Made by a program: the position numbers and the translations under genes
Shown: positions 51,518-63,812 of the stretch, piece by piece
How the letters are laid out: each line of letters opens with the position of its first letter
How positions within the stretch are numbered: position 1 is the first letter of the stretch
Notes under the pieces: model-generated
Told to the model about the DNA's origin: nothing
Databases searched by the model: none
What the model saw: only the letters and a program-made list of their open reading frames with translations
NCBI GenBank assembly: GCA_015231795.1
Contig: JADGAX010000005.1
Span: forward strand, 126,154 to 190,153
DNA: 64,000 nt
DNA from: Alphaproteobacteria bacterium
GTDB taxonomy: Bacteria; Pseudomonadota; Alphaproteobacteria; Rhodospirillales; WMHbin7
Direction: 5' to 3'

Positions 51518-51823
51518 ATGGAGACGCTCGTTCCTCACCCCGACCGCCTGAACAGGCTGTCCTTGCATTACGATGGACCTCTTCCGCCCGAACGGTTGCG
51601 GCTTGCCTTGGCGCAATCCGATCAAGCGGCCGCCCGGGGACTGGCAATGGCGCAGGCTCGTTTCCTTGCCGCCATGGCCGGGTCTTCGCGCCAAGCGCTG
51701 GCGGGTGCTCGCCAGAAAATCGGCGTTGATTTGTGCGCCCTGGACAGGCTTCAGACGAATTTGAAATACGAGCGCGACCAAGCCGTCGGCTGGATCAGCC
51801 GGGCAGAGGCTTGGCCAGAATAA
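51518..51823 (+). CDS. Small hypothetical protein
   Basis: A 101-residue, mostly helical protein (METLVPHPDRLNRLSLHYDG; AQARFLAAMAGSSRQALAGA). No family recognised. Its last 29 bp overlap the end of the convergent 1036-residue gene. A TTG start 51 bp upstream is possible. Confidence 0.55.
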   Translation: METLVPHPDRLNRLSLHYDGPLPPERLRLALAQSDQAAARGLAMAQARFLAAMAGSSRQALAGARQKIGVDLCALDRLQTNLKYERDQAVGWISRAEAWPE

Positions 51824-54800
51824 GCGTCGTTTTGGCTTCAGGGGCGGGAACGAACAGATCGATCCGCCAGCCCGCCTCTTCCAACAGGGCGCGCAACTGT
51901 TTCTCGTCGAAATCATTGAACCAGCCCTGGGCGCGCCGCTCCTTGATCTTGTCCTTGTCGCGCAGCCGGTAGGTCAGCACCAAGGACGGGCTGGCCTTGC
52001 GGCAAGCCGTAAGAACCTTGCCCGGATCATGCAGGAATTCCAGAACCTCGAGAAGGGCGACGGCGTCGAATGCGCCGTCCGGGAACTGGCCCTGATTGAG
52101 ATCGCAAGCCAGCGTGCCTTCCGTCCAAGGTACGAGATCGCAAGGTACGTAATCGACCCCTGGCGCCAGATGCTTTTTCAAAAACATCTGCCCCGCCCCC
52201 AGGTCAAGCACGCGGCCCTTTTGCGGCAGCAACGAGGCGGCGGCGGCGGCACGCTCGATGGCCAGCCAAGACAGATTGGCCGGATCGGCCCAGAAACCCG
52301 CATCGCTGGTCAGGGCCGATTTCAAATTGGTCGTGCGCTTGGCCTTGGCCTCGCCTTCCTGGCGCGCCCGTTCGGGTTGGGTGGGGGCCACGGCCTGCGA
52401 AACCGGCGGGCGCGGATAGCTGTCCAGCGGCGCAAAGCCCGGCGCCAGAGCGATGAAATTGCACAAATCCTCGGTATCGACGAAGGGAATCAAGGGGCCG
52501 CCTAGTTGCTCGTTGGCAAAGCGCATCAGACGAAAGCCCTGCCCGGTCAGCCCGGCCAGCAAACGCGTGAAATTCTTGCGAGGCGCGCCCTCGTCGAATC
52601 CTCGCCCGCGTTCCAGAATGATCGCCGCCACCTGCCCGCTTGCCAGCAGGCCTTTCATACCCGCCACGACTTCGGGTTCCATGCCTTCTACGTCGATCTT
52701 GACGAAGCAGCGCGCATCTCGAAGGCTGGGCCGCTCGGCCAGCAGGGAATCGACGCTGACCAGACGCAACGCCCCCTTGGGGTCGGGCAGAACCGAGAAT
52801 CCCATGCTGCTGTTGCCGCCCGCCGCCAGCCGCCCCTGGCCCGGCTTGTCGGCGCAGCCCGCCACCACGGTTTCGATCATATGGGCCAAGCCGTTGGCCG
52901 CCGCCCAGTCATTCAGCCTTGCCGCGTTCGACGCATCGGCCTCGACGGCCAGCACCCGCACTTGGCCCGGCCAACGACTAGCGCAGGAAAGGGCGATCAC
53001 GCCCCAATGGGCGCCGATATCGAGAACGACGTCGCCGGGCGCCAAATGCGCATCGAGAAAGGCGCGCGTCGCGTATTCATAGCCGCCAAAATGGCTTTCG
53101 CGTTTGAGGATGAAGGCGGCCCCCGGATCCTTAAGCAGGCTTCTGGGCAGCGTCATGGTGAAACGCGGCCGTCCGTCGTCGCGCTTAGCCGCCGAAGGCA
53201 AGGTTAGAATGTCTTGCGCCGCCGATTTTTCCTGCAGCGCTATGAAGACTCGGCGCACGACGCCGTCCCAGTCATTGGGGCGCGGCTGGCGAAACAAGGT
53301 CAGCGTCGGATACCAAGGCGAATCCTGGCAGGTCAGCAGCCATCGCCAGTCGGGAGCAAAGGGCAGCAGCACCCAGGCGGGCTTGCCCAAAGCGCCCGCC
53401 AGATGCACCAGCGCCGTATCGACCGAAATGACCAGATCCAATTGCGAAACCAGCGCCGCCGTATCGGCGAACGAGCCGATCCGCGGGGCCAAATCGACCA
53501 GCAAGCCGCTGTCAAGAAAGGGCTTGGCCTCGACGGGCAGGTCCTGTCCGACCTGCAAGGAATAGAAGGCCGCACCTTGCAAGCCGAACAAGGGAGCCAG
53601 CTTGGCAAAGGCCATGCTGCGCAGCCGATCGCCCCGGTGGCGCGGATTGCCCGCAAAGGCCAGCCCCACCTTTAGATGCGCCCCCTGCGGGACCTTGATT
53701 TTCAAATTCTCTGGCACTGACGGGGCCAACAGGTACGGCACGCGGGCGGGAATGCAAGACAACTCGGTCTTGAACAAGGCGGGCAGGTCCAATAGATGGG
53801 CGTAGCAGTCGGTCTTGGGCAGGCCTTTGCCGTCGGTCACCACATCGGCCAAACCCGGCATCGATTGCAGCAAGGGGGCAAGTGCTGGCGAAGTGGCTAG
53901 AAACACCTTGCCGCCGCCCGCCACCAGCATGGGCACATAGCGAAGGAACTGAATCGTGTCGCCAGCACCCTGTTCGCCCAGCAGCAGAATCGAGCGCCCG
54001 GCCAAGGGCAGGCCGTCCCAGACCGGCACAGGCAGATGGGGCGGCGTGAAATCGATGTGACGCTTGCGCCATTCGTAATCGGCCCAGCCGGGACCCAGGC
54101 GGCCCGCCAGGAAATGAAGCCTCGCCCGCGCCAGATGGCTATCGATCAGATTGGCGTCCAGCTCCATCGCCCTTGCAATGGGGGGCTGGGCCTCCTCCAG
54201 CCGCCCCTGGCTGATCAACGTCTGGGCTAGGCCGGTATGAACCGCCGCCAGGCCTTCGCCGCCTTGGCGCAGCAAGGCGCGATAGATCGCTTCCGCCGCC
54301 TGATACTGGCCCTGCTGCGATTTGTGGAAAGCCATCCTAAGATGATGGCCAGCCGAGGTCGGCTTTAGGCGAATGGCGCGCTCCAGCGCCAGTTGCGCCG
54401 CATCATCCTGACCCGCATCGAACAAGACGTCGCTGAAAGCGGCCCAGGCGGCGACATTGCCAGGCTCCTTGGCCAGCAGCGTTTCCATGGCCGACAACGC
54501 CTCGTCCAACTGGCCCGCTTCCTTAAGCGCTAGCGCTAGGCCGCTGACCGCCGCCAACAGGATGTTCGAATCCTGCGCCGCCCTCTTGAAAGCGCCGACC
54601 GCTTCGTGCAGGCGCTTCAGGCGGCGCAAGGTCTCGCCCAGATTCTGCCACATGCCGGGCTGGCGGGGATCGATCTCCAACGCCTTGTAGAGCAGGCGCA
54701 GCGAGGCTTCCAGCTTGCCCAGGCGGCGCAGCACCACGGCGGCATTGACCAGCGAGGGAATGTGATCGGGCTGTTCGGCCATCGCCTGTTCATAGGCGCT

Positions 54801-54905
54801 GGCGGCCTGCTCCAATTGGCCAGACCTTTGCAGATCCAGCGCTCGCTCGAACGCCTCGAAGGGCGGCAAGATATCGATATCGGTCGCGGGCGTTGGGTCG
54901 GTCAT
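51795..54905 (-). CDS. TPR + glycosyltransferase-like + FkbM + class I methyltransferase fusion
   Basis: A 1036-residue protein. Residues 1-260 hold TPR repeats (DHIPSLVNAAVVLRRLGKLE; GMWQNLGETLRRLKRLHEAV). About 280-560 resembles family-9 glycosyltransferases (ILLLGEQGAGDTIQFLRYVP; DLVISVDTALVHLAGALGKP). About 600-830 is an FkbM methyltransferase (VVLDIGAHWGVIALSCA; FVKIDVEGMEPEVV). The last ~160 residues are a second methyltransferase (VLDLGAGQMFLKKHLAPG; AFDAVALLEVLEFLHDP). It probably modifies a surface or flagellar glycan; the substrate is unknown. Confidence 0.88.
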   Translation of the reverse strand: MTDPTPATDIDILPPFEAFERALDLQRSGQLEQAASAYEQAMAEQPDHIPSLVNAAVVLRRLGKLEASLRLLYKALEIDPRQPGMWQNLGETLRRLKRLHEAVGAFKRAAQDSNILLAAVSGLALALKEAGQLDEALSAMETLLAKEPGNVAAWAAFSDVLFDAGQDDAAQLALERAIRLKPTSAGHHLRMAFHKSQQGQYQAAEAIYRALLRQGGEGLAAVHTGLAQTLISQGRLEEAQPPIARAMELDANLIDSHLARARLHFLAGRLGPGWADYEWRKRHIDFTPPHLPVPVWDGLPLAGRSILLLGEQGAGDTIQFLRYVPMLVAGGGKVFLATSPALAPLLQSMPGLADVVTDGKGLPKTDCYAHLLDLPALFKTELSCIPARVPYLLAPSVPENLKIKVPQGAHLKVGLAFAGNPRHRGDRLRSMAFAKLAPLFGLQGAAFYSLQVGQDLPVEAKPFLDSGLLVDLAPRIGSFADTAALVSQLDLVISVDTALVHLAGALGKPAWVLLPFAPDWRWLLTCQDSPWYPTLTLFRQPRPNDWDGVVRRVFIALQEKSAAQDILTLPSAAKRDDGRPRFTMTLPRSLLKDPGAAFILKRESHFGGYEYATRAFLDAHLAPGDVVLDIGAHWGVIALSCASRWPGQVRVLAVEADASNAARLNDWAAANGLAHMIETVVAGCADKPGQGRLAAGGNSSMGFSVLPDPKGALRLVSVDSLLAERPSLRDARCFVKIDVEGMEPEVVAGMKGLLASGQVAAIILERGRGFDEGAPRKNFTRLLAGLTGQGFRLMRFANEQLGGPLIPFVDTEDLCNFIALAPGFAPLDSYPRPPVSQAVAPTQPERARQEGEAKAKRTTNLKSALTSDAGFWADPANLSWLAIERAAAAASLLPQKGRVLDLGAGQMFLKKHLAPGVDYVPCDLVPWTEGTLACDLNQGQFPDGAFDAVALLEVLEFLHDPGKVLTACRKASPSLVLTYRLRDKDKIKERRAQGWFNDFDEKQLRALLEEAGWRIDLFVPAPEAKTTLILAKPLPG

Positions 54906-54934
54906 CGCCGACCAAGTTAGCAAATGGCGACGGC

Positions 54935-56815
54935 TCAGGCCAGTCGGCTGTCGCAGGAGGTGATCAACGTGGCCTGACAGATCTTGTCCGGGCTGGCCTT
55001 GGCCCCCTTCTTCAACTCGGCGATCAGCCAGCCGATTTCCTCGACCGTCGATGGGCCGTGCGACGATGGAAGGTCGAGTTGGGCCGCCGACACGGTCAGA
55101 AGCGGGAAGCGGCGGATATTGCCTTCCCGGTCATGCGCCTCGATGAAGCCCGCCGCCCGGTCGGGCGCGTCGTAGAAACTTTCCACCTCATAGCGAAATT
55201 GCAGGCCGATGGCGCGCACCAAGGCGCCGACCGCTTCGCCGTCCATTCCCTTGAAGCAGGCGAAGAAGTCGTCGCCGCCCACATGCCCCACCGCAAAGCC
55301 ATGGCTTTGCGCCTCGCGCGACAAGATTTCGGCGAACAGCAAAATGGCCCGGTCTCCTTGGCGGAAACCGTATTTGTCGTTGAAGGGCTTGAAATTGTCG
55401 AAATCGAAATAGGCGAAGGAATAGGCGTTCTCGGCGTCGGCCAGGGCTTCGGTGACCAGCCCGTGAATGACGCTATTGCCCGGCAGTTTGGTCAGCGGAT
55501 TCTGATCGCGGGCGAAGGCCAAGTTCTTTTCGTTGATCACCTTCAGCAGGGCGTGCGCGCCCAGAAACCCCACATATTTCAGGTTCTCGACGATGATCAC
55601 CCCTTCCGAGCTGGCGTTGGCCGAGAAGATTTCGAGGATCTTTTCGGCGGGCGTATGCACGTCTGCGATCGGGCACCGGGCGATGAAGTGCGTGATCTTG
55701 TAGCCGAAATTCTTGTTGCAGATGATTTCCTTGCCGTAGGTCGAATAGGTGAACTCCTTCAGGTCGCGCTCGCGGATCAGACCCATCGGCTCGCCCGCAT
55801 TGTCGACCACGGGCAGGAAATTGTGGTTCTTGGCGTCCCTGAAGCGCGAGAAAACAGTGCGCATGTCGCTGGTGGCGGCCAAAGGCTCCAGCCGCTCGAT
55901 CTGTTCGAAAATGATCTTCTGGTCGGAACCCTTCTGGCGGCGCTCGCGGCGGCTCAGTTTCTCGATGTCGGGATAGTGCGTGCGCAACAAAGCGGTCTCT
56001 TGCGTCGGATGCTGGATCATGTAGCCCTGCACCAGATCGCAGCCGATGTCCTTGCAGCTGAAGAATTCCTGCTCGGTCTCCACCCCTTCGGCGATCACCT
56101 CGATGCCCAGCACATGCGCCACATTGACCATGTTGGCGAGAAACAGCTTCTTTTTGGCGTCGGTCGAGATGCCCGCGATGAAGAAACGGTCGATCTTCAG
56201 ATATTCCGGCTCGGCCTGATACAAAAGCTGAAGGCCGGAAAAGCCGATGCCGAAATCGTCGATGGCGATCTTGAAGGCGTCGCGCTTCAATTCGCGAATG
56301 ATCTGGGTGGGGTCCAGCGTCAGCGGAAAGGGGTGGCGCTCGGACACTTCGAAGGTGACGGCGGTTTCGGACAGGCCTTCCTCGGCCAGGCACGATTTCA
56401 ACGTTTGCAGCACCGGCAGTGCGCCCAGGGCGCGGTTGTCGGCGTTCAGGAACAAGCGCAGTTTGGCGGCGCCGGGCATGGTGGCGAACTTGCGCGCCGC
56501 CTTGGCCAGCAGCACCCCTTCGATGGCGGGCAGGACGCCCTGGGCATGGCAGCAATCGAAGAAATCGCCGATGCTGGCGAACCCGGCATCGCTCGTGTTG
56601 CGCAACAACGCCTCGTAGCCGCCGCAATAGCCGGTATGGATGTTGACGATGGGCTGAAAGGCGAAGTCCAGCTTGGACAGAATGTCTTGCCAGGCGCGGC
56701 CCAGGCGGGGCGGCACGGCCAGCGGCACCGGCCCCTTGGCGTGCGTCGGGCGTAAGGGCGACGGGGGAAATGGGCGAGCCATTGATCCCGCCTGGTCCAA
56801 TTGAAGCATCGTCAT
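54935..56815 (-). CDS. EAL-CBS-GGDEF cyclic di-GMP protein
   Basis: A 626-residue soluble protein with EAL first: DFAFQPIVNIHTGYCGGYEA then LLRNTSD (near residue 68), IAIDDFGIGFSGLQLLYQAE, LKIDRFFIAGIS. A CBS pair covers about 300-430 (FLPVVDNAGEPMGLIRERDL; GVIIVENLKYVGFLG). The GGDEF domain ends the protein: FDNFKPFNDKYGFRQGD and VGHVGGDDFFACF near 515, where GGDDF replaces GGDEF. Phosphodiesterase activity is likely; cyclase activity is uncertain. CBS may sense adenylates. Confidence 0.92.
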   Translation of the reverse strand: MTMLQLDQAGSMARPFPPSPLRPTHAKGPVPLAVPPRLGRAWQDILSKLDFAFQPIVNIHTGYCGGYEALLRNTSDAGFASIGDFFDCCHAQGVLPAIEGVLLAKAARKFATMPGAAKLRLFLNADNRALGALPVLQTLKSCLAEEGLSETAVTFEVSERHPFPLTLDPTQIIRELKRDAFKIAIDDFGIGFSGLQLLYQAEPEYLKIDRFFIAGISTDAKKKLFLANMVNVAHVLGIEVIAEGVETEQEFFSCKDIGCDLVQGYMIQHPTQETALLRTHYPDIEKLSRRERRQKGSDQKIIFEQIERLEPLAATSDMRTVFSRFRDAKNHNFLPVVDNAGEPMGLIRERDLKEFTYSTYGKEIICNKNFGYKITHFIARCPIADVHTPAEKILEIFSANASSEGVIIVENLKYVGFLGAHALLKVINEKNLAFARDQNPLTKLPGNSVIHGLVTEALADAENAYSFAYFDFDNFKPFNDKYGFRQGDRAILLFAEILSREAQSHGFAVGHVGGDDFFACFKGMDGEAVGALVRAIGLQFRYEVESFYDAPDRAAGFIEAHDREGNIRRFPLLTVSAAQLDLPSSHGPSTVEEIGWLIAELKKGAKASPDKICQATLITSCDSRLA

Positions 56816-56979
56816 CAGGCTCTCCGCGCTTGTTGCCGGACCGTTCAAAGCAGGCAAGGGATGCGCTTTTAGCCCGCAGAAAGTCAACATCTACAAGGAC
56901 TTGCAACAAAACATTCATTTAAGCCGCTGGCAGGCAAACACTGGCTTTCCAATCCTTTCAAGCCATTGCATCATGCGCC

Positions 56980-58680
56980 ATGATCGATTCCCATCCGCAC
57001 GGACTGGCCGAACACCTGGATCTCATCGCCGCGATGAGCCTAAGTTTCGCCACGTCGCAGAATCTGGACGCCAGTTTGAAGCACGGGCTGGAGCGAATCG
57101 CCGACGCCCTGAACGCCGAGGCGGCGTCGCTGTTCCTGGCCGAAAAGGGCGAGTTGGTGTGCCATGCCTGCGCCGGGCCGGTCGACATCACCGGCCTGCG
57201 CATTCCGGTTTCCAGCGGCATCGTGGGCCGCGCCGTCACCGGCCGCACTACCCAGACAGTCTTCGACGTTCGAAACGATCCCGACTTTCACGCCAATGTC
57301 GACAGCAAGACCGGCTTCGTCACGCGCTCGATCCTGTGCGCCCCCATGGTGGTGCGCAACGAAGCCCTGGGCGCCATCGAGCTGATCAACAAATCGACCG
57401 GCGACGGATTGTTCGACGCCCCGGACGCCCGCGTGCTGGAGGCCCTGGCCTCGGCCGCCGCCCTGGCCCTGTTGAACGCCCGCATGGCCCAAGCTCTGGT
57501 CGAACAAGAACGCATGAAGCGCGAAATGGAGCTGGCCGCGCAAATCCAGCACAGCCTGCTGCCCGAAGACCGGCCCGCCCCCTTTCCCATCGCGGGGCTG
57601 GGCCGCCCCTTCCGCGAAGTGGCCGGCGATTTCTACGACATCCTGCCTTTGCCGGACGGCCGCATCGGCTTTTGCCTGGGCGACGTTTCCGGCAAGGGCA
57701 TGGATGCCGCCCTTTTGATGGCCAAGACGGCCAGCCTGTTTCGCGCCCTGGCCAAGGACGAATGCGATCCAGCGCTTCTGGTCGCGCGCATCAACGACGA
57801 ATTGTGCGAAACCGCCAGCCAGGGAAAATTCGTGACTCTGGTGGCGGGCTTCCTGGATGCGTCGGGACAGAAACTATCCTTCGCCAATGCGGGCCACGAA
57901 CCGCCGCTGCTGATCCGCAAGGGCCAGCCCGCCATGTCGCTTCCCGCCCCGTCGCCGCCCGTGGGCATTCTGCCGGGAACGGTTTACGAATCCGAAGAGG
58001 TGGCGCTTGACGGAGGAACCTTGTACATCTTCACTGATGGCCTGACCGAAAGCACGGGGGAGGACGGGACAATGCTGGGAGCCGAGGGCGTCGCCGCCTT
58101 GATCGGCGAGCAAAAGGACGATGCGCCGCTGACCGACAAGCTGGCGGCCCTGGCCGATGGCGCCCTGGCCCCAGGGCGTCAAGTGCATGACGATCTGACC
58201 CTGCTGGCCGTCGATGGCAGCCAGCAGCCGGTTGACGGCCAACAGTTCCAACCCATCTTGCGCCTGGCCAGACTGGACGTGCCGGCACAGCCCGACCGCT
58301 TGAAGATGGTGCGCCGCGTAGTGGCCGAATCGGCGGCGCTGGCCGGGTTATCGGATGAAAAGAACGCCGATCTGGTGCTGGCGGTCGACGAGGCCATGCA
58401 GAACATCATCCGCCACGCCTATGGCGGCCCTTCGGACAAGCCGGTAAATATCGACATTTCGAAGGAAGAAGGACATCTGGTGGTGCGTATGACCGATTAC
58501 GCGCCCGCGGTTGACCCAACGCGCATCCGGCCCCGTGACCTGGACGATGTGCGCCCCGGCGGGCTTGGCACCCATTTCATCCAGTCCGTGCTGGACGACC
58601 ACCGTTTCGAACAGCCCCCGCCGGGGGCAGGCAACCGCCTCAAGCTGTCTATTCGTATCGAACAAGGACCCTTGCCATGA
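56980..58680 (+). CDS. GAF-RsbU-type phosphatase fused to an anti-sigma-type kinase domain
   Basis: A 566-residue regulator. A GAF domain (about 20-165) begins NLDASLKHGLERIADALNAE. The PP2C/SpoIIE phosphatase domain (190-400) has IQHSLLPED, VAGDFYDILPLPDGRIGFCL, GDVSGKGMDAALLMA and YIFTDGLTES. An RsbW-like HATPase (430-560) has LVLAVDEAMQNIIRHAYGG and DLDDVRPGGLGTHFIQSVLD. It would both phosphorylate and dephosphorylate a STAS partner, encoded next (overlap ATGA). Confidence 0.93.
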   Translation: MIDSHPHGLAEHLDLIAAMSLSFATSQNLDASLKHGLERIADALNAEAASLFLAEKGELVCHACAGPVDITGLRIPVSSGIVGRAVTGRTTQTVFDVRNDPDFHANVDSKTGFVTRSILCAPMVVRNEALGAIELINKSTGDGLFDAPDARVLEALASAAALALLNARMAQALVEQERMKREMELAAQIQHSLLPEDRPAPFPIAGLGRPFREVAGDFYDILPLPDGRIGFCLGDVSGKGMDAALLMAKTASLFRALAKDECDPALLVARINDELCETASQGKFVTLVAGFLDASGQKLSFANAGHEPPLLIRKGQPAMSLPAPSPPVGILPGTVYESEEVALDGGTLYIFTDGLTESTGEDGTMLGAEGVAALIGEQKDDAPLTDKLAALADGALAPGRQVHDDLTLLAVDGSQQPVDGQQFQPILRLARLDVPAQPDRLKMVRRVVAESAALAGLSDEKNADLVLAVDEAMQNIIRHAYGGPSDKPVNIDISKEEGHLVVRMTDYAPAVDPTRIRPRDLDDVRPGGLGTHFIQSVLDDHRFEQPPPGAGNRLKLSIRIEQGPLP

Positions 58681-59003
58681 ACATTTCCGTACGCGAAGAC
58701 CGCGGCTTTCTGGTCATGACGCTGGATGGAGAAGCCGATCTTCAGCACACGCCTACGCTGCGCAAGATGCTGCTGGAATCGGTTTCCGGCGGCAAGCCGG
58801 TGGTGGTCGACATGTCGAATGTCAGCTATATCGACAGTTCCGGCGTCGCCAGTCTGGTCGAGGCCTATCAGTCGGCCCGGAAAAAGGGCTTTTCCTTCGC
58901 TCTGGCGGGCTTAAGTCCGGCCGCGCTGCGCGTGCTGCAATTGGCCAGGCTGGATCGGGTGTTCACCATCCATGCCACGCTGGACGCGGCGGTCGGAGGA
59001 TAA
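58677..59003 (+). CDS. STAS anti-anti-sigma-type protein
   Basis: A 108-residue STAS protein with the phosphorylation site in VSYIDSSGVASLVEA (Ser54/Ser55). Start overlaps the phosphatase/kinase gene; 5 bp separate it from the ABC permease start. It could be the RsbV-type switch, or the MlaB-type STAS subunit of the transporter, or both; MlaB is also a STAS protein. Confidence 0.9.
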   Translation: MNISVREDRGFLVMTLDGEADLQHTPTLRKMLLESVSGGKPVVVDMSNVSYIDSSGVASLVEAYQSARKKGFSFALAGLSPAALRVLQLARLDRVFTIHATLDAAVGG

Positions 59004-59008
59004 GCGAC

Positions 59009-59809
59009 TTGCCCGCCCGCCACCTTCATCTCGTCGAGAAGACCGGGCGCGCCACCATCGCTGGCATCGCCGAGATCGGCTATGGCGCCTTCCTGCTGGG
59101 CGAAAGCCTGTTCTGGCTGGTCATGGGCAGAAGGCGGCGCCAGCCGGTGCGCTTCGGCGCCGTGGTCGCCGAGGCGATGGAGTTCGGCGTGCGCGCCGTT
59201 CCCATCGTGGCCATCCTGGCAGGAACCGTGGGCGCCATGCTGGCCATCCAGGGCATCCATACGCTCAAGACCTTCGGCGCCGAGTCCCGCGTCACCTTCG
59301 GGGTGGCGCTGTCGGTGGTGCGCGAATTCGCCCCCCTCATCACCGGCATCGTGGTGGCCGGGCGCTCAGGCTCGGCGCTGGCGGCGCGCCTTGGCACCAT
59401 GCGCATCAACCAGGAAATCGACGCGCTGCACGTCATGGGCATTGATCCTGTGCGTTTTCTGGTGGCCCCCGCCCTGCTGGCCATGCTGGTCGTGCTGCCG
59501 CTTCTGACCCTGCTGGCCGATTTCGTGGCCCTGACCGGGGCGGGCATGTATATCTGCATGGATCTGGGCATGGATTTTCCCGCCTATTGGGAACGGGTGA
59601 TCGAAGCCCTGAAGGTCGATGATCTGGGCCACGGACTTGGCAAAAGCGTGATCTTCGCCGTGTTGGTGACCTTGGTCGGCGTGGTCAACGGTTCCCTGGT
59701 TCAGGGCGGCGCCGAGGGGGTGGGCAAGGCGACCACGCGGTCGGTCGTACACGCCATCAGCGCCATCGTGGTCACCGACATGCTGTTCGCCTTCGTGCTG
59801 ACCAGATAG
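59009..59809 (+). CDS. mlaE: MlaE-type ABC transporter permease
   Basis: A 266-residue inner-membrane permease for phospholipid transport. Motifs: EFGVRAVPIVAILAGTVGAM, VREFAPLITGIVVAGRSGSA, LGTMRINQEIDALHVMGIDP, and LGKSVIFAVLVTLVGVVNGS. I chose the TTG at 59009, with GGAGG upstream and just after the STAS stop; longer frames overlap the STAS gene. Confidence 0.93.
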   Translation: MPARHLHLVEKTGRATIAGIAEIGYGAFLLGESLFWLVMGRRRRQPVRFGAVVAEAMEFGVRAVPIVAILAGTVGAMLAIQGIHTLKTFGAESRVTFGVALSVVREFAPLITGIVVAGRSGSALAARLGTMRINQEIDALHVMGIDPVRFLVAPALLAMLVVLPLLTLLADFVALTGAGMYICMDLGMDFPAYWERVIEALKVDDLGHGLGKSVIFAVLVTLVGVVNGSLVQGGAEGVGKATTRSVVHAISAIVVTDMLFAFVLTR

Positions 59810-59811
59810 CC

Positions 59812-60624
59812 ATGAGCGCCACCCCCAACCGCACCCCCAACAAGGTGATCGAGGTCAGAGACCTCGTGACCCATTACGGCACCCGCCAGATCCTGAAGGG
59901 CATCTCGCTTGACATCCACGAAGGCGAGATCATGGTCATCATGGGCGGCTCGGGTTCGGGGAAGAGCACGCTGCTTAACCATCTGCTGGGCCTTTTGAAG
60001 CCGTCGTCGGGAACGGTCAGCATCCTGGGCCAGGACATCAACAAACTGTCCGCCGTCGAGATGACCAAGCTGCGCACGCGCATGGGCGTGGCCTTTCAGG
60101 GCGGCGCCCTGTTCAGTTCGATGACGGTCGGCGAGAATATTCTGCTGCCGCTGCGCGAACACACAGAACTTGACCACAGCACCATGGCCATCATGGCGCG
60201 CCTGAAAATGGAAGTGGTGAAGCTGGCCGATTTCGAAAATCTGATGCCCAGCGAATTGTCGGGCGGCATGATCAAGCGGGCCGCCCTGGCCCGCGCCATC
60301 GTGATGGACCCCAGGCTATTGTTCTGCGACGAGCCGTCGGCGGGGCTGGACCCCGTCGTGTCGGCGGCCATCGATGAGTTGATCATCACCCTGCGCGACG
60401 CCATGGGCATGACCATCGTGGTGGTCACCCACGAATTGGAAAGCGCCTTTCGCATCGCCGACCGCATCTGCGTGTTGGACCGGGGCGACATCTTGATGGT
60501 CGATACGGTCGAAGCCGTGCGCTCAACCAGCAACGAACGCATTCAGAATCTGTTGAACCGGCGGCTCGAGGAGGCGACACTCGACCCCGACGATTACATG
60601 CGCCGCCTGACCATTGGAATATAA
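59812..60624 (+). CDS. mlaF: MlaF-type ABC ATPase
   Basis: A 270-residue ATPase. Walker A is GGSGSGKST (45-53), the signature is LSGGMIKRAALARAI, Walker B is LLFCDEPSAGLDP, and the switch histidine lies in VVVTHELESAF. GMTIVVVTHELESAFRIADR is typical of Mla/Ttg2 ATPases. Only 2 bp after the permease. Confidence 0.95.
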   Translation: MSATPNRTPNKVIEVRDLVTHYGTRQILKGISLDIHEGEIMVIMGGSGSGKSTLLNHLLGLLKPSSGTVSILGQDINKLSAVEMTKLRTRMGVAFQGGALFSSMTVGENILLPLREHTELDHSTMAIMARLKMEVVKLADFENLMPSELSGGMIKRAALARAIVMDPRLLFCDEPSAGLDPVVSAAIDELIITLRDAMGMTIVVVTHELESAFRIADRICVLDRGDILMVDTVEAVRSTSNERIQNLLNRRLEEATLDPDDYMRRLTIGI

Positions 60625-60642
60625 CGGGGGATTTGGGAAGAC

Positions 60643-61596
60643 ATGCGCACCCTTGACACCAATTACGTGGCCGTGGGCGCCTTTGTGCTGGCGGGCGCGG
60701 CCGGATTGATCACGGCCCTGGCCTTGCTGACCGGGCGCACCGGCTCGGCCGACATGTACTACACCGGCTACGACAACGTGTCGGGCATCAAATACGGCAC
60801 CGTGGTTTCCTATGAAGGCTATCGCGTCGGCCAGGTGGAATGGGTCAAGCCCTATGGCGAGAAGGGCAAGCCGCGCTTCAAGGTGGCGCTGGCGGTTCAG
60901 GAGGGCTGGGAAATTCCCGAGGACAGCGTGGCGGCCATCACCTCGTCGGGCCTGCTGGCCGCCGTTTCGATCGATCTTCGCGCCGGACGCAGCGAAACCC
61001 TGGCCAAGCCGGAGGCCGTGCTGCAAGGGGCTAGCAGCTCCAACATGATGGCCGTGGTTTCGTCCCTGGCGGGCGACATGGGCGACCTGACCCAGAACGG
61101 GCTGAAGCCGTTGCTGGCCAGCCTGCTCCACTATGTGGACACGCTGGGTTCCACGCTGGAAAAGACCGCCCCCGATCTGCTGGCCAACATGCAGACCTTG
61201 TCCAAGGACCTGTCGAAGCGCGGCCCCGCCATTCTTGAAAATGCCGAAAGCCTGTCCGGGCGTTTGAGTCAGGCGGGCGAGCGCGTTCTGTCCGACAAGA
61301 ACATCGACGAGATGGACAAGACCGTGAAGATGATGGGCGAGTTGAAAGCCACCAAGGCCCAGGTCGACCATCTGATCGCGCAATTGAACGCGACAGCCGC
61401 CGACGCCAAGCCAAGCGTCGCCCAGGGCCTGACAGATTTGAACCACACGCTGCGCGTGGTCTCCTCCAGCATCGATTCGATCACCGTCAACATGGAAAGC
61501 ACCAGCCGAAACATGGCGGAATTCTCACGGCGCATCCGCGACAATCCAGGCCTGATCCTGGGCGGCGGAGCGCCACCCGACGAGGCCGCGAAATGA
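60643..61596 (+). CDS. mlaD: MlaD-type MCE-domain substrate-binding protein
   Basis: A 317-residue protein anchored by one N-terminal membrane helix (YVAVGAFVLAGAAGLITALA). The MCE domain follows (about 35-115: GYDNVSGIKYGTVVSYEGYR; PEDSVAAITSSGLLAAVSID). A long helical C-terminal part extends to residue 300, longer than E. coli MlaD (183), as in other alphaproteobacteria. It binds lipid in the periplasm. Confidence 0.93.
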   Translation: MRTLDTNYVAVGAFVLAGAAGLITALALLTGRTGSADMYYTGYDNVSGIKYGTVVSYEGYRVGQVEWVKPYGEKGKPRFKVALAVQEGWEIPEDSVAAITSSGLLAAVSIDLRAGRSETLAKPEAVLQGASSSNMMAVVSSLAGDMGDLTQNGLKPLLASLLHYVDTLGSTLEKTAPDLLANMQTLSKDLSKRGPAILENAESLSGRLSQAGERVLSDKNIDEMDKTVKMMGELKATKAQVDHLIAQLNATAADAKPSVAQGLTDLNHTLRVVSSSIDSITVNMESTSRNMAEFSRRIRDNPGLILGGGAPPDEAAK

Positions 61597-62183
61597 AAAT
61601 GCGCATCCTGCTTGCCCTGCTTGCCCTCGCCCTGCCCCTGGCCGGTTGCGGCGGAGCGCCCCCGCCGGCCGAGCATTTCTACCGGCTGACCACACCCGTC
61701 GTTGCGCCGTCTGCCAAGCCCCTGCCCGGCATCCTGGTCGTCGAGCGGCTGCGCGCCGACGGCGTGACCGGCGAGCGCCCGATAGCCCATTCTCGCGCCG
61801 ATCAGCCCAAGAATCTGGAAACCTACCGCTATCATTTTTGGACCGAAGCGCCGGGGCGCATGTTGCAGCAGCATCTGGTGAAATCACTGAACGACGCCAA
61901 GGCGGCCAGCCAGGTCTTGACCGACGAAGTGAAGGTTGAGGGCGTCTGGCTGTTGAAAGGCCGCCTGCTGCATTTCGAGCAGGTGTTGGGCAGCCAGCCC
62001 AAGGTGGTGATCGAAGCCGACATGACGCTGATGAAGGCCAAGGATTACAGTCTGGTCCATCGCGGCCTGTATCGCGAAGAGGAACCCGCCCAGGGCGACA
62101 GCCCTGCCGCCGCGGTCGACGCCATGCAAAAAGCCTTCGAACGCTTAAGCCAGCGGATCGCTGCCGATCTGAAAGCGCCGTAA
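61593..62183 (+). CDS. ABC-type transport auxiliary lipoprotein
   Basis: A 196-residue lipoprotein: lipobox LPLAGCGG after the signal sequence (ILLALLALALPLAGC). The mature part (YRLTTPVVAPSAKPLPGILV; VWLLKGRLLHFEQVLGS) matches the PqiC/LptE-like auxiliary lipoprotein group (DUF330-like) that works with MCE transporters. Start overlaps mlaD by 4 bp. Confidence 0.88.
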   Translation: MKMRILLALLALALPLAGCGGAPPPAEHFYRLTTPVVAPSAKPLPGILVVERLRADGVTGERPIAHSRADQPKNLETYRYHFWTEAPGRMLQQHLVKSLNDAKAASQVLTDEVKVEGVWLLKGRLLHFEQVLGSQPKVVIEADMTLMKAKDYSLVHRGLYREEEPAQGDSPAAAVDAMQKAFERLSQRIAADLKAP

Positions 62184-62187
62184 CCCC

Positions 62188-63525
62188 TTGGCAAAACGTC
62201 CTCGCTATGCCGTGTCGCGGCCCATCAACCGGCCGATCGAAGCGCGCAACGCCGAAATCGTCATTGAGCGCCTAGGCGCCAGGGGCGACGGGATCGGCCA
62301 GTTGGGCGGCACTCCCGTCTTCGTGCCGCTGACCCTGCCCGGCGAGCGCGTGCTGGCGCGCATCGAAGGCAAGCGCGGCGACGGCCTGACCGCCAGCGTT
62401 CTTGAATGGCTTCTGCAAGACCCGGCCCGCGCCAAGCCGCCCTGCCGCCATTTCGGCATCTGCGGCGGCTGCGCCGCCCAACATATGAACGACAAGCTCT
62501 ATGTCGCCTGGAAGCGCGGCATCGCAGTGGAAGCCTTGTCCAGGGTGGGCGTGCCGGAAGAACGGATCGCCCCCTTGATGCGGGTGTCGGCGCACACTAG
62601 GCGGCGCGCCAGCTTCGCCTTCAGAAGAACCCGCGACGGCGTGTTGCTGGGCTTCAACGCCAGGGCCAGCCATCAACTGGTGGATGTCGGCGAATGCCCG
62701 CTGTTGCATCCCGATCTGGAATCGGCTCTGCCCGGCTTGCGTCTGGCCTTGAACGGCGTTCTGACCGGCGATGCCCAGGGCGACATCGCGCTTCAACTCA
62801 CCGAAAGCGGTTTGGACGCGCTGATTACCTGCGACCTGACGCTCGATCTGTTCAAGCGCGAAAAGCTGGCCGTCATGACCGAGCAGGCCAATCTGGCCCG
62901 CATTTCGTGGCGACGGCACGAAGACGAGGACCCCGAACCCGTCTCCGAGCGCCACGCCCCCATCGTGACGTTGGGCGGCGTCGCCGTTCACTTGCCGCCG
63001 GGCGTCTTTTTACAGCCCAGCCGCGAGGGCGAAGCCGCCATCACCGCCCAGGTCATGGCGGGCCTGTCTGGTCTGGATGGTCCGGTGGCCGATCTGTATG
63101 CGGGCGTCGGCAGCTTCAGCCTGCCCCTGGCCGCCTGCCATCCCGTCCATGCCGTCGATGGCCATGCCCAGGCCGTGGCCGCCTTGAAACAGGCGGGCGA
63201 CCGCATCGCCCTTGGCCGACTGACCACCGAGCGCAGAGATCTGTCCAAGCGCCCCCTGCTGGTCCATGAATTGAAGAAATTCAGCGGCGTGGTGATCGAT
63301 CCGCCGCGCGCCGGAGCGCGCGAGCAAGTAACGGAACTGGCTATGGCCGCAACGGTTCAAAAAACCGTCATGGTGTCTTGCAATCCGGCGACGATGGCGC
63401 GCGATCTTTCCATCCTTATAAACAAGGGATGGCGTCTTGACTCGGTCGTGCCAATCGACCAATTCTTATGGACGCCGCACCTGGAACTGACGGCGATTCT
63501 TCATCAAACGATCAAAAAATCTTGA
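62188..63525 (+). CDS. RNA (uracil-5-)-methyltransferase, TrmA/RlmD group
   Basis: A 445-residue enzyme. An N-terminal TRAM domain (IVIERLGARGDGIGQLGGTP) precedes the iron-sulphur cysteines PPCRHFGICGGCAAQHM and a fourth Cys in VGECPLLHP. The methyltransferase core has VADLYAGVGSFSLPLA, VVIDPPRAGAREQV and VSCNPATMARDL with the catalytic cysteine. Probably 23S rRNA m5U; the target base is not certain. The TTG at 62188 is assumed; a GTG at 62212 is possible. Confidence 0.93.
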   Translation: MAKRPRYAVSRPINRPIEARNAEIVIERLGARGDGIGQLGGTPVFVPLTLPGERVLARIEGKRGDGLTASVLEWLLQDPARAKPPCRHFGICGGCAAQHMNDKLYVAWKRGIAVEALSRVGVPEERIAPLMRVSAHTRRRASFAFRRTRDGVLLGFNARASHQLVDVGECPLLHPDLESALPGLRLALNGVLTGDAQGDIALQLTESGLDALITCDLTLDLFKREKLAVMTEQANLARISWRRHEDEDPEPVSERHAPIVTLGGVAVHLPPGVFLQPSREGEAAITAQVMAGLSGLDGPVADLYAGVGSFSLPLAACHPVHAVDGHAQAVAALKQAGDRIALGRLTTERRDLSKRPLLVHELKKFSGVVIDPPRAGAREQVTELAMAATVQKTVMVSCNPATMARDLSILINKGWRLDSVVPIDQFLWTPHLELTAILHQTIKKS

Positions 63526-63536
63526 GGACCCTGCCG

Positions 63537-63812
63537 ATGAAAACGCGTGTCGTTTTTCTTGAACTGTCCGGCCACCCCACCGTCATCCTGCCCGTCAAGC
63601 CTGAAGTCGCCGAAGACATCGAACGGGCCAAGGCCGCCATCGTCAAATACAAGCCGCATTTTGCCAAACACACCATCGTGCTGATGGGAAACGGCCTGCG
63701 CCCGGTTTACGTCGGCAAGGGCGAGCTGGTGCGCCAGCTCGACGCCATGGACGAAACCTTGCTGAAATGGACGGACATCGAATTGGTCCCGGCGGGTTAC
63801 ACCGTTCTTTAG
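63537..63812 (+). CDS. Small conserved hypothetical protein
   Basis: A 91-residue soluble protein (MKTRVVFLELSGHPTVILPV; HFAKHTIVLMGNGLRPVYVG). No family recognised. GAGGA precedes the ATG at 63537, which lies 12 bp after the methyltransferase stop. Ends overlap the convergent lipB end by 4 bp. Confidence 0.65.
   Translation: MKTRVVFLELSGHPTVILPVKPEVAEDIERAKAAIVKYKPHFAKHTIVLMGNGLRPVYVGKGELVRQLDAMDETLLKWTDIELVPAGYTVL

Follow-up and report, generated by a model that had tools for sequence, protein, structure and literature searches.

A predicted partner-switching kinase/phosphatase encoded with an Mpc-type lipid transporter may control transport through an MlaB-like STAS protein

In the genome of an alphaproteobacterium of the Rhodospirillales, a putative phosphatase/kinase of the partner-switching kind, here called P1, is encoded together with a free STAS protein directly ahead of the genes of a lipid transporter. 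The operon lies in a stretch of 64,000 nucleotides (GenBank assembly GCA_015231795.1, contig JADGAX010000005.1, positions 126,154 to 190,153), which we refer to as the window. The coupling of P1 and STAS to the transporter is not a matter of chance, and we propose, with a probability of roughly two in three, that P1 phosphorylates and dephosphorylates Ser54 of STAS and thereby would control the binding of STAS to the ATPase MlaF and, with it, transport. The operon probably acts as an on/off control of intermembrane lipid transport. Open reading frames (ORFs) and Pfam matches agree with an earlier sequence-only reading, which had described a phosphatase and anti-sigma-type kinase gene overlapping a STAS gene ahead of mlaE-mlaF-mlaD-lipoprotein. 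Six plus-strand genes stand in one tight run at 56980-62183, in the order P1, free STAS, mlaE, mlaF, long mlaD and PqiC-like lipoprotein:

56980..58680, + strand: P1, putative bifunctional STAS phosphatase/kinase of 566 aa, GAF-PP2C (SpoIIE/RsbU-type)-HATPase_c_2 (RsbW-type) (Pfam domains, conserved catalytic residues, AF2 model)
58677..59003, + strand: free STAS protein of 108 aa with D53-S54-S55-G56, proposed MlaB equivalent (PF01740, 1.6e-23; TIGR00377 over cut-off)
58836..58838, + strand: codon of Ser54, predicted phosphorylation site, aligned with Thr52 of E. coli MlaB (DSSG starts at residue 53)
59009..59809, + strand: MlaE/MpcE permease of 266 aa without an N-terminal STAS domain (PF02405, 2.3e-68; TIGR00056 over cut-off)
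59812..60624, + strand: MlaF/MpcF ATPase of 270 aa with the C-terminal extension ...LDPDDYMRRLTIGI (ABC_tran, 2e-33; tail comparison)
60643..61596, + strand: MlaD/MpcD long MCE protein of 317 aa (PF02470, 1e-10; Mtu_fam_mce, 4e-22, below cut-off)
61593..62183, + strand: PqiC-family (ABC_trans_aux) lipoprotein with the lipobox LAGC, seen by eye (PF03886, 2.7e-15)

ATGA overlaps join P1 to STAS and MlaD to the lipoprotein, and the remaining intergenic gaps measure 5 (STAS-mlaE), 2 (mlaE-mlaF) and 18 nt (mlaF-mlaD). No ATG lies near the 5' end of mlaE; its proposed start is the TTG at 59009, with a GGAGG ahead of it at 58995.

The arrangement is conserved in related genomes, a comparison that the sequence-only reading had suggested. 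Sixty genomes, the window's own and relatives, were searched in two rounds and the fetched stretches annotated. The window's MlaE type occurred in 44 of them (58-100% identical), and a HATPase and a STAS gene stood immediately upstream of it in all 44 (across a contig break in genome G038). The GAF-PP2C part was present as well in 43; in the exception, G006 (locus L086), kinase and STAS are kept and GAF-PP2C was not found, so that STAS there would be expected to stay phosphorylated for good if no other phosphatase steps in. Among the 16 genomes without this MlaE type, two (G021 and G022) had a full-length P1 and two (G032 and G058) a PP2C-only match. In a sample of the class (289 genomes, MlaE type at E <= 1e-70), nine genomes carried the MlaE type and all nine had P1 nearby; it stood directly upstream in eight, whereas in G238 it was found at the 3' end in inverted orientation. 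The other 280 held three P1 matches at E <= 1e-50 (G065, G186 and G334), all partial. A sample of the phylum (397 genomes, P1 at E <= 1e-80, MlaE at E <= 1e-55) gave six genomes with P1, six with MlaE and four with both, adjacent in all four; the mismatches were G021, G686, G384 and G422, and in G384 (L233) MlaE, close to where a contig begins, has neither STAS nor MlaF beside it. Finally, a search of named genomes with P1 only gave, for the best 80 of 523 relatives, 74 loci in the order P1-STAS-MlaE, one that ends at a contig edge and five without Mla genes. By their labels, these named loci come from Myxococcota as well as from Alpha-, Beta-, Gamma- and 'Delta'-proteobacteria (among the names are Rhodospirillales, Magnetospirillum, Terasakiella, Dongia, Solimonas, Azonexus, Propionivibrio, Ectothiorhodospiraceae, Deltaproteobacteria and Myxococcota; metagenome-assembled genomes make up many of them, and taxa are as labelled). 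Non-pathogens with the operon include Terasakiella pusilla DSM 6293 (L179), Azonexus hydrophilus (L230) and Insolitispirillum peregrinum (L208). P1 was split into two ORFs in 15 of 52 listed loci. The named genomes and the other samples share some members, so that their counts are not independent. A chance neighbourhood was rejected on the linkage counts, with Fisher p values of ~6e-15 (class) and 1e-10 (relatives) in tests that treat genomes as independent, although four of the nine class genomes belong to one genus.

As a control, we turned to transporters of other kinds. The class search returned 57 further MlaE matches, 33-43% identical and mostly in frames of ~375-520 aa, and 40 of these loci were fetched, with 5.5-7 kb each. 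STAS was fused to MlaE in all 40, and neither the phosphatase nor the kinase profile of P1 gave a match within the 5.5-7 kb of any of them (0/40); the phosphatase profile does pick up further PP2C genes at other places in the window's genome. Both kinds of transporter coexist in five genomes.

P1 itself is predicted to be active in both of its enzyme domains, their catalytic residues being intact. Pfam places GAF at 29-164 (4e-13), SpoIIE/PP2C at 225-411 (5e-44; PF07228, 151 bits) and HATPase_c_2 at 434-557 (2e-24; PF13581, 86 bits). We aligned the window's P1 with the rows above 300 bits from L047-L105, which include L103 and L104 from non-Mla operons. The metal-binding aspartates of PP2C were invariant at every aligned position (D217 and D235 in 55/55, D353 in 54/55 with one gap, D404 and D405 in 53/55 with two gaps), as were, in 53/53, the N-box E..N...H, the D and the PGGLG glycine loop of the RsbW-type HATPase. 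Residues 216-501 match the solved structure 3ke6 (Rv1364c); phosphatase and kinase can share one chain, as in Rv1364c and in HsbR of the HsbR-HsbA system of Pseudomonas. In the AF2 model of P1 (pLDDT 90.3) a continuous helix, 147-193, bridges GAF and PP2C, as would be expected were GAF to control the phosphatase. The closest solved relatives of this GAF domain are of the cyclic-nucleotide type (PDE5, PDE2 and an adenylate cyclase). Of the GAF motif NKxnFx3DE, the P1 family keeps NKx6Fx3D (N137 in 37/37, K138 in 34/37, F145 in 36/37 and D149 in 35/37), but the last Glu is mostly missing (kept in 3/37); the family resembles cyclic-nucleotide GAFs with an incomplete motif.

The free STAS protein carries the site that such enzymes would act on. 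It scores 82.5 bits against TIGR00377 (cut-off 53.45), and the SpoIIAA-type DSSG is kept in 55/55 proteins of one set and 80/81 of a second (a pattern search found 78, and L158 and L169 were added by eye). The lone exception is the truncated STAS of L202, a locus without Mla genes. In the 40 fused STAS domains the site reads DTAG in 23, has Thr in 33 and Ser in five, and is DSSG in one; in MlaB of E. coli K-12 it reads DTGG. Like MlaB, the window STAS is a free gene with mlaE and mlaF and has a Ser/Thr at the position of Thr52, and its family profile also matches the E. coli MlaB sequence (8e-5). Tandem STAS pairs stand between kinase and mlaE in G106, L197 and L199; a tandem pair in L093 has DSSG in both copies, and L093 and L199, as well as L199 and G106, look like one genome.

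Two features of MlaF point to it as the partner of STAS. First, a C-terminal YxxxL tail was present in the MlaF proteins encoded with a free STAS (49/51 in one set and 61/61 in another, L173 and L212 being judged by eye as YIxxL) and in 0/40 of those with a fused STAS. The tail aligns with Tyr261-Leu265 of E. coli MlaF, which sit in the groove between MlaB and MlaF (PMC7367683). Second, MlaF keeps company with P1 and STAS even where the permease differs. In four gammaproteobacterial loci (L180, L186, L191 and L214, two of them labelled Ectothiorhodospiraceae) the mlaE that follows P1-STAS is canonical and the mlaD is short, and mlaF is encoded on the other strand; further on, L180 has mlaA-like and mlaC-like ORFs (by eye). 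L189 starts likewise, with P1-STAS and a canonical mlaE, and its available sequence holds no MlaF; L189, L194 and L223 all lack MlaF within >900 nt downstream of MlaE. In trees of 51 chosen sequences each, the MlaE of the four loci forms a clade with that of E. coli at a support of 0.98 (identities of 43-44% to E. coli and 31-33% to the P1-linked kind). The MlaF of these loci, by contrast, is 61-66% identical to the P1-linked kind and 36-38% to E. coli, grouping with members of other classes at a support of 0.95 (0.78 for the whole P1-linked clade). It is thus MlaF, not the permease, that travels with P1-STAS, which on sequence grounds fits a STAS that would bind MlaF as MlaB does.

The transporter is of the Mpc (Mla-Pqi chimeric) type rather than plain Mla. 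Its operon encodes MlaE, MlaF, a long MlaD and a PqiC-like lipoprotein, with neither MlaC nor MlaA inside, and this lipoprotein together with the absence of mlaC marks an Mpc-type transporter; canonical Mla (mlaFEDCB) has mlaC in the operon. We rejected an assignment of the lipoprotein as MlaA on its match to the PqiC family (PF03886, 2.7e-15). Mpc of Brucella abortus (mpcEFDA; PMC12436622) has the same order of MlaE, MlaF, long MlaD and PqiC-like protein in an operon without MlaC or MlaA, but there MpcE carries STAS at its N-terminus in an operon of four genes only, whereas in the window STAS is a separate gene after the kinase/phosphatase and the 266-aa MlaE frame matches MlaE only. Elsewhere in the genome, contig C12 has a second MlaE (L001), which we read as a canonical-type permease; it is encoded with an MlaF, and the pair is flanked by genes that look by eye like alr and radA. 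Contig C4 carries two MlaD-type matches, and the genome's two MlaC matches are found on C1 and on C2, where an MlaA-like ORF (by eye) adjoins the match. The other MlaE-MlaF pair and the MlaD and MlaC matches make the window operon a second MCE transporter. The sequence-only reading had placed a phospho-switched STAS in an Mla system: the switch stands as the best explanation of the conserved order, the intact residues and the co-travel of MlaF tail and family, but the system is a second, Mpc-type transporter.

That reading had also named a separate mlaB elsewhere in the genome as evidence that would count against it. The genome holds ten STAS matches, and of the nine outside the operon none reaches the NCBIfam MlaB cut-off of 90 (best 28.7 bits) or has, in 1.5-kb flanks, a match to the MlaE, MlaF, MlaD, lipoprotein or kinase profiles, on which grounds a separate MlaB was rejected. 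Of the nine, one has its best match in FliG and another in SulP; further PP2C matches lie at distances of 1.3 kb from L008 and 3.5 kb from L010, and L005 and L007 adjoin chemoreceptor-like ORFs (by eye). The window STAS fails the same model (NF033618, 25.9 bits), however, which weakens this argument.

We infer from these observations a switch in which MlaF would fill the slot held by a sigma factor or other target in classical partner switches. The RsbW-type domain of P1 would place phosphate on Ser54 of STAS, and the PP2C domain would take it off under the control of GAF, acting through helix 147-193 in response to a presumed signal. Unphosphorylated STAS would dock on MlaF, together with the C-terminal tail of MlaF, and support its ATPase activity and transport; phosphorylated STAS would dock unproductively or not at all, and transport would drop. 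Dephosphorylated STAS thus quite likely corresponds to transport switched on, given the weakened MlaF binding of E. coli MlaB T52E, a substitution at the MlaF interface (PMC7367683), and the STAS logic of the classical systems. The behaviour of T52A in E. coli calls for caution, as the site matters beyond its charge. We lean towards a broader proposal as well, that this is a widespread partner switch with the ABC ATPase MlaF as terminal partner, in which a kinase/phosphatase would gate intermembrane lipid transport post-translationally through an MlaB-like STAS. It would do so for transporters of the canonical Mla as well as the Mpc type, in Myxococcota and in Alpha-, Beta-, Gamma- and 'Delta'-proteobacteria.

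Several observations weigh against this proposal. In G422 (L234), a true counter-example, the transporter stands without P1 or STAS, so that the transporter core can exist without them. Conversely, G686 and five of the named loci, all gammaproteobacterial, have P1-STAS beside FHA-like or PrpC-like genes and no Mla gene, possibly as a second output of the same module; G021 has kept P1-STAS without the transporter, with a GST-like gene (by eye) after STAS, and in G022 P1-STAS is kept beside an internally deleted transporter of which MlaE and lipoprotein remnants are left. The window STAS is closer to RsbV and SpoIIAA than to MlaB in both sequence and fold. The best fold matches of its AF2 model (pLDDT 94.9) are anti-sigma factor antagonists (4qtp, Z 18.8; RsbV 6m36, Z 18.4, rmsd 1.4, 100 aligned), with SpoIIAA 1th8 at Z 17.8 (rmsd 1.7, 108 aligned) and Pseudomonas aeruginosa MlaB 7cha at Z 13.1 (rmsd 1.9, 95 aligned). 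Strand 97-99 and helix 102-107 are present in the model, which therefore lacks the minimal STAS fold of MlaB, one without a fifth strand or last helix (PMC7367683). Fused STAS domains and E. coli MlaB also retain Ser/Thr at the phosphosite, so its presence alone is no marker of kinase control, and MlaB T52A, which still bound yet was non-functional, does not agree with simple phospho-control (PMC7367683). As for the tail, L099 and L100 are the two free-STAS MlaF proteins without YxxxL, and Veillonella MlaF has a short tail though MlaB is absent (PMC10665443), so the tail alone proves nothing. Two side observations belong here: L202, L205, L219, L222, L229 and L235 have P1-STAS beside genes for FHA-domain proteins, PrpC-type phosphatases and, in some, CHASE2-like proteins (by eye), and in L092, where P1 and STAS are kept, MlaE stops after ~83 aa of the profile and a lipoprotein remnant follows.

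The Mla-free loci and the loss of the transporter in G021 and G022 would also suit an alternative that we consider unlikely, in which P1-STAS has another target (a sigma factor, a diguanylate cyclase or a Ser/Thr-kinase/FHA pathway) and the transporter genes are co-transcribed with it as neighbours or are a set of genes that it regulates. The outputs of classical STAS/RsbW pairs are sigma or anti-sigma factors, and among the known partner switches a diguanylate cyclase also serves as output. The constancy of the P1-STAS-MlaE order (43 of 44 genomes, the 44th departing only in its lack of GAF-PP2C, and 74 of the best 80 named loci) argues against it, as do the lack of a second STAS in the operon and the co-travel of MlaF with P1-STAS beside a different permease. 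Nor does any operon protein match a sigma factor in Pfam; a Pfam scan, which was not genome-wide, found no sigma-factor family among the nine proteins at 54935-63809.

Rather improbable is a reversed flow of information, in which the transporter is the sensor: MlaF would hold STAS during transport, and freed STAS would engage P1, whose kinase/phosphatase state would report the lipid status of the envelope. This alternative uses the same contacts as the proposed switch, and P1-STAS without a transporter means that other outputs are possible. But P1 has its own N-terminal GAF with a long helix leading into PP2C, and the operon encodes no effector of P1 besides the transporter. Least tenable, and very improbable in our view, is a STAS that serves as a constitutive structural MlaB, with a phosphatase/kinase that is a relic or affects only its stability or assembly. 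In its favour, MlaF association depends on MlaB in E. coli, phosphorylation of which has never been demonstrated (PMC7367683), and G006 retains kinase and STAS without GAF-PP2C, but catalytic residues that are invariant in both enzymes where aligned and a Ser54 conserved across classes are not the pattern of a relic.

The proposed control of transport by P1 and STAS joins parts that are known separately. With RsbU/RsbW/RsbV and SpoIIE/SpoIIAB/SpoIIAA the window shares a PP2C phosphatase, a HATPase kinase and a DSSG STAS, with the hallmark PP2C aspartates and RsbW-type N-box and glycine loop in place; in contrast to these classical systems, the linked output here is an ABC-type lipid transporter. 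With E. coli MlaFEDB it shares the free STAS, MlaE and MlaF, the YxxxL tail of MlaF and the Ser/Thr at the aligned site; E. coli MlaB differs in its DTGG and in having no SpoIIAA-type last strand and helix, both of which the window model has (PMC7367683). Each of these elements has been described or proposed before: partner switches, the Mla and Mpc transporters, and a phospho-control that MlaB may be under. A dedicated kinase/phosphatase within the transporter operon, conserved across classes, appears to be new: among the literature matches listed (titles and abstract starts, most subscription journals being outside the search), no paper on a kinase or phosphatase in an Mla or Mpc operon was found. 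The excerpts of PMC9041414 hold nothing on a kinase or phosphatase in Mla operons, and those of PMC11418112 do not mention a transporter or Mla.

As for the surroundings of the operon, an rlmD-like gene follows directly at 62188. Divergent from P1 lies a gene for an EAL-CBS-GGDEF protein (54935-56890, minus strand; GGDDF replaces GGDEF, by eye), relatives of which were also found in L047-L049, L052, L080, L152, L177, L179 and L223, so that some lineages may have a link between the transporter and a c-di-GMP enzyme. Beyond it, 51795-54923 (minus strand) encodes a protein of 1042 aa in which TPR-like repeats and FkbM/methyltransferase-like parts can be made out by eye.

Regulation of MlaB by phosphorylation has been stated as an open question, the site being present (PMC7367683). 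In the operon described here the STAS subunit comes with its own predicted kinase and phosphatase, an arrangement kept in several classes of bacteria, and this makes that question directly testable. If the proposed switch is true, it would be a non-transcriptional output of partner switching that acts on an ABC transporter, and it would hint at why STAS domains sit on such transporters at all.

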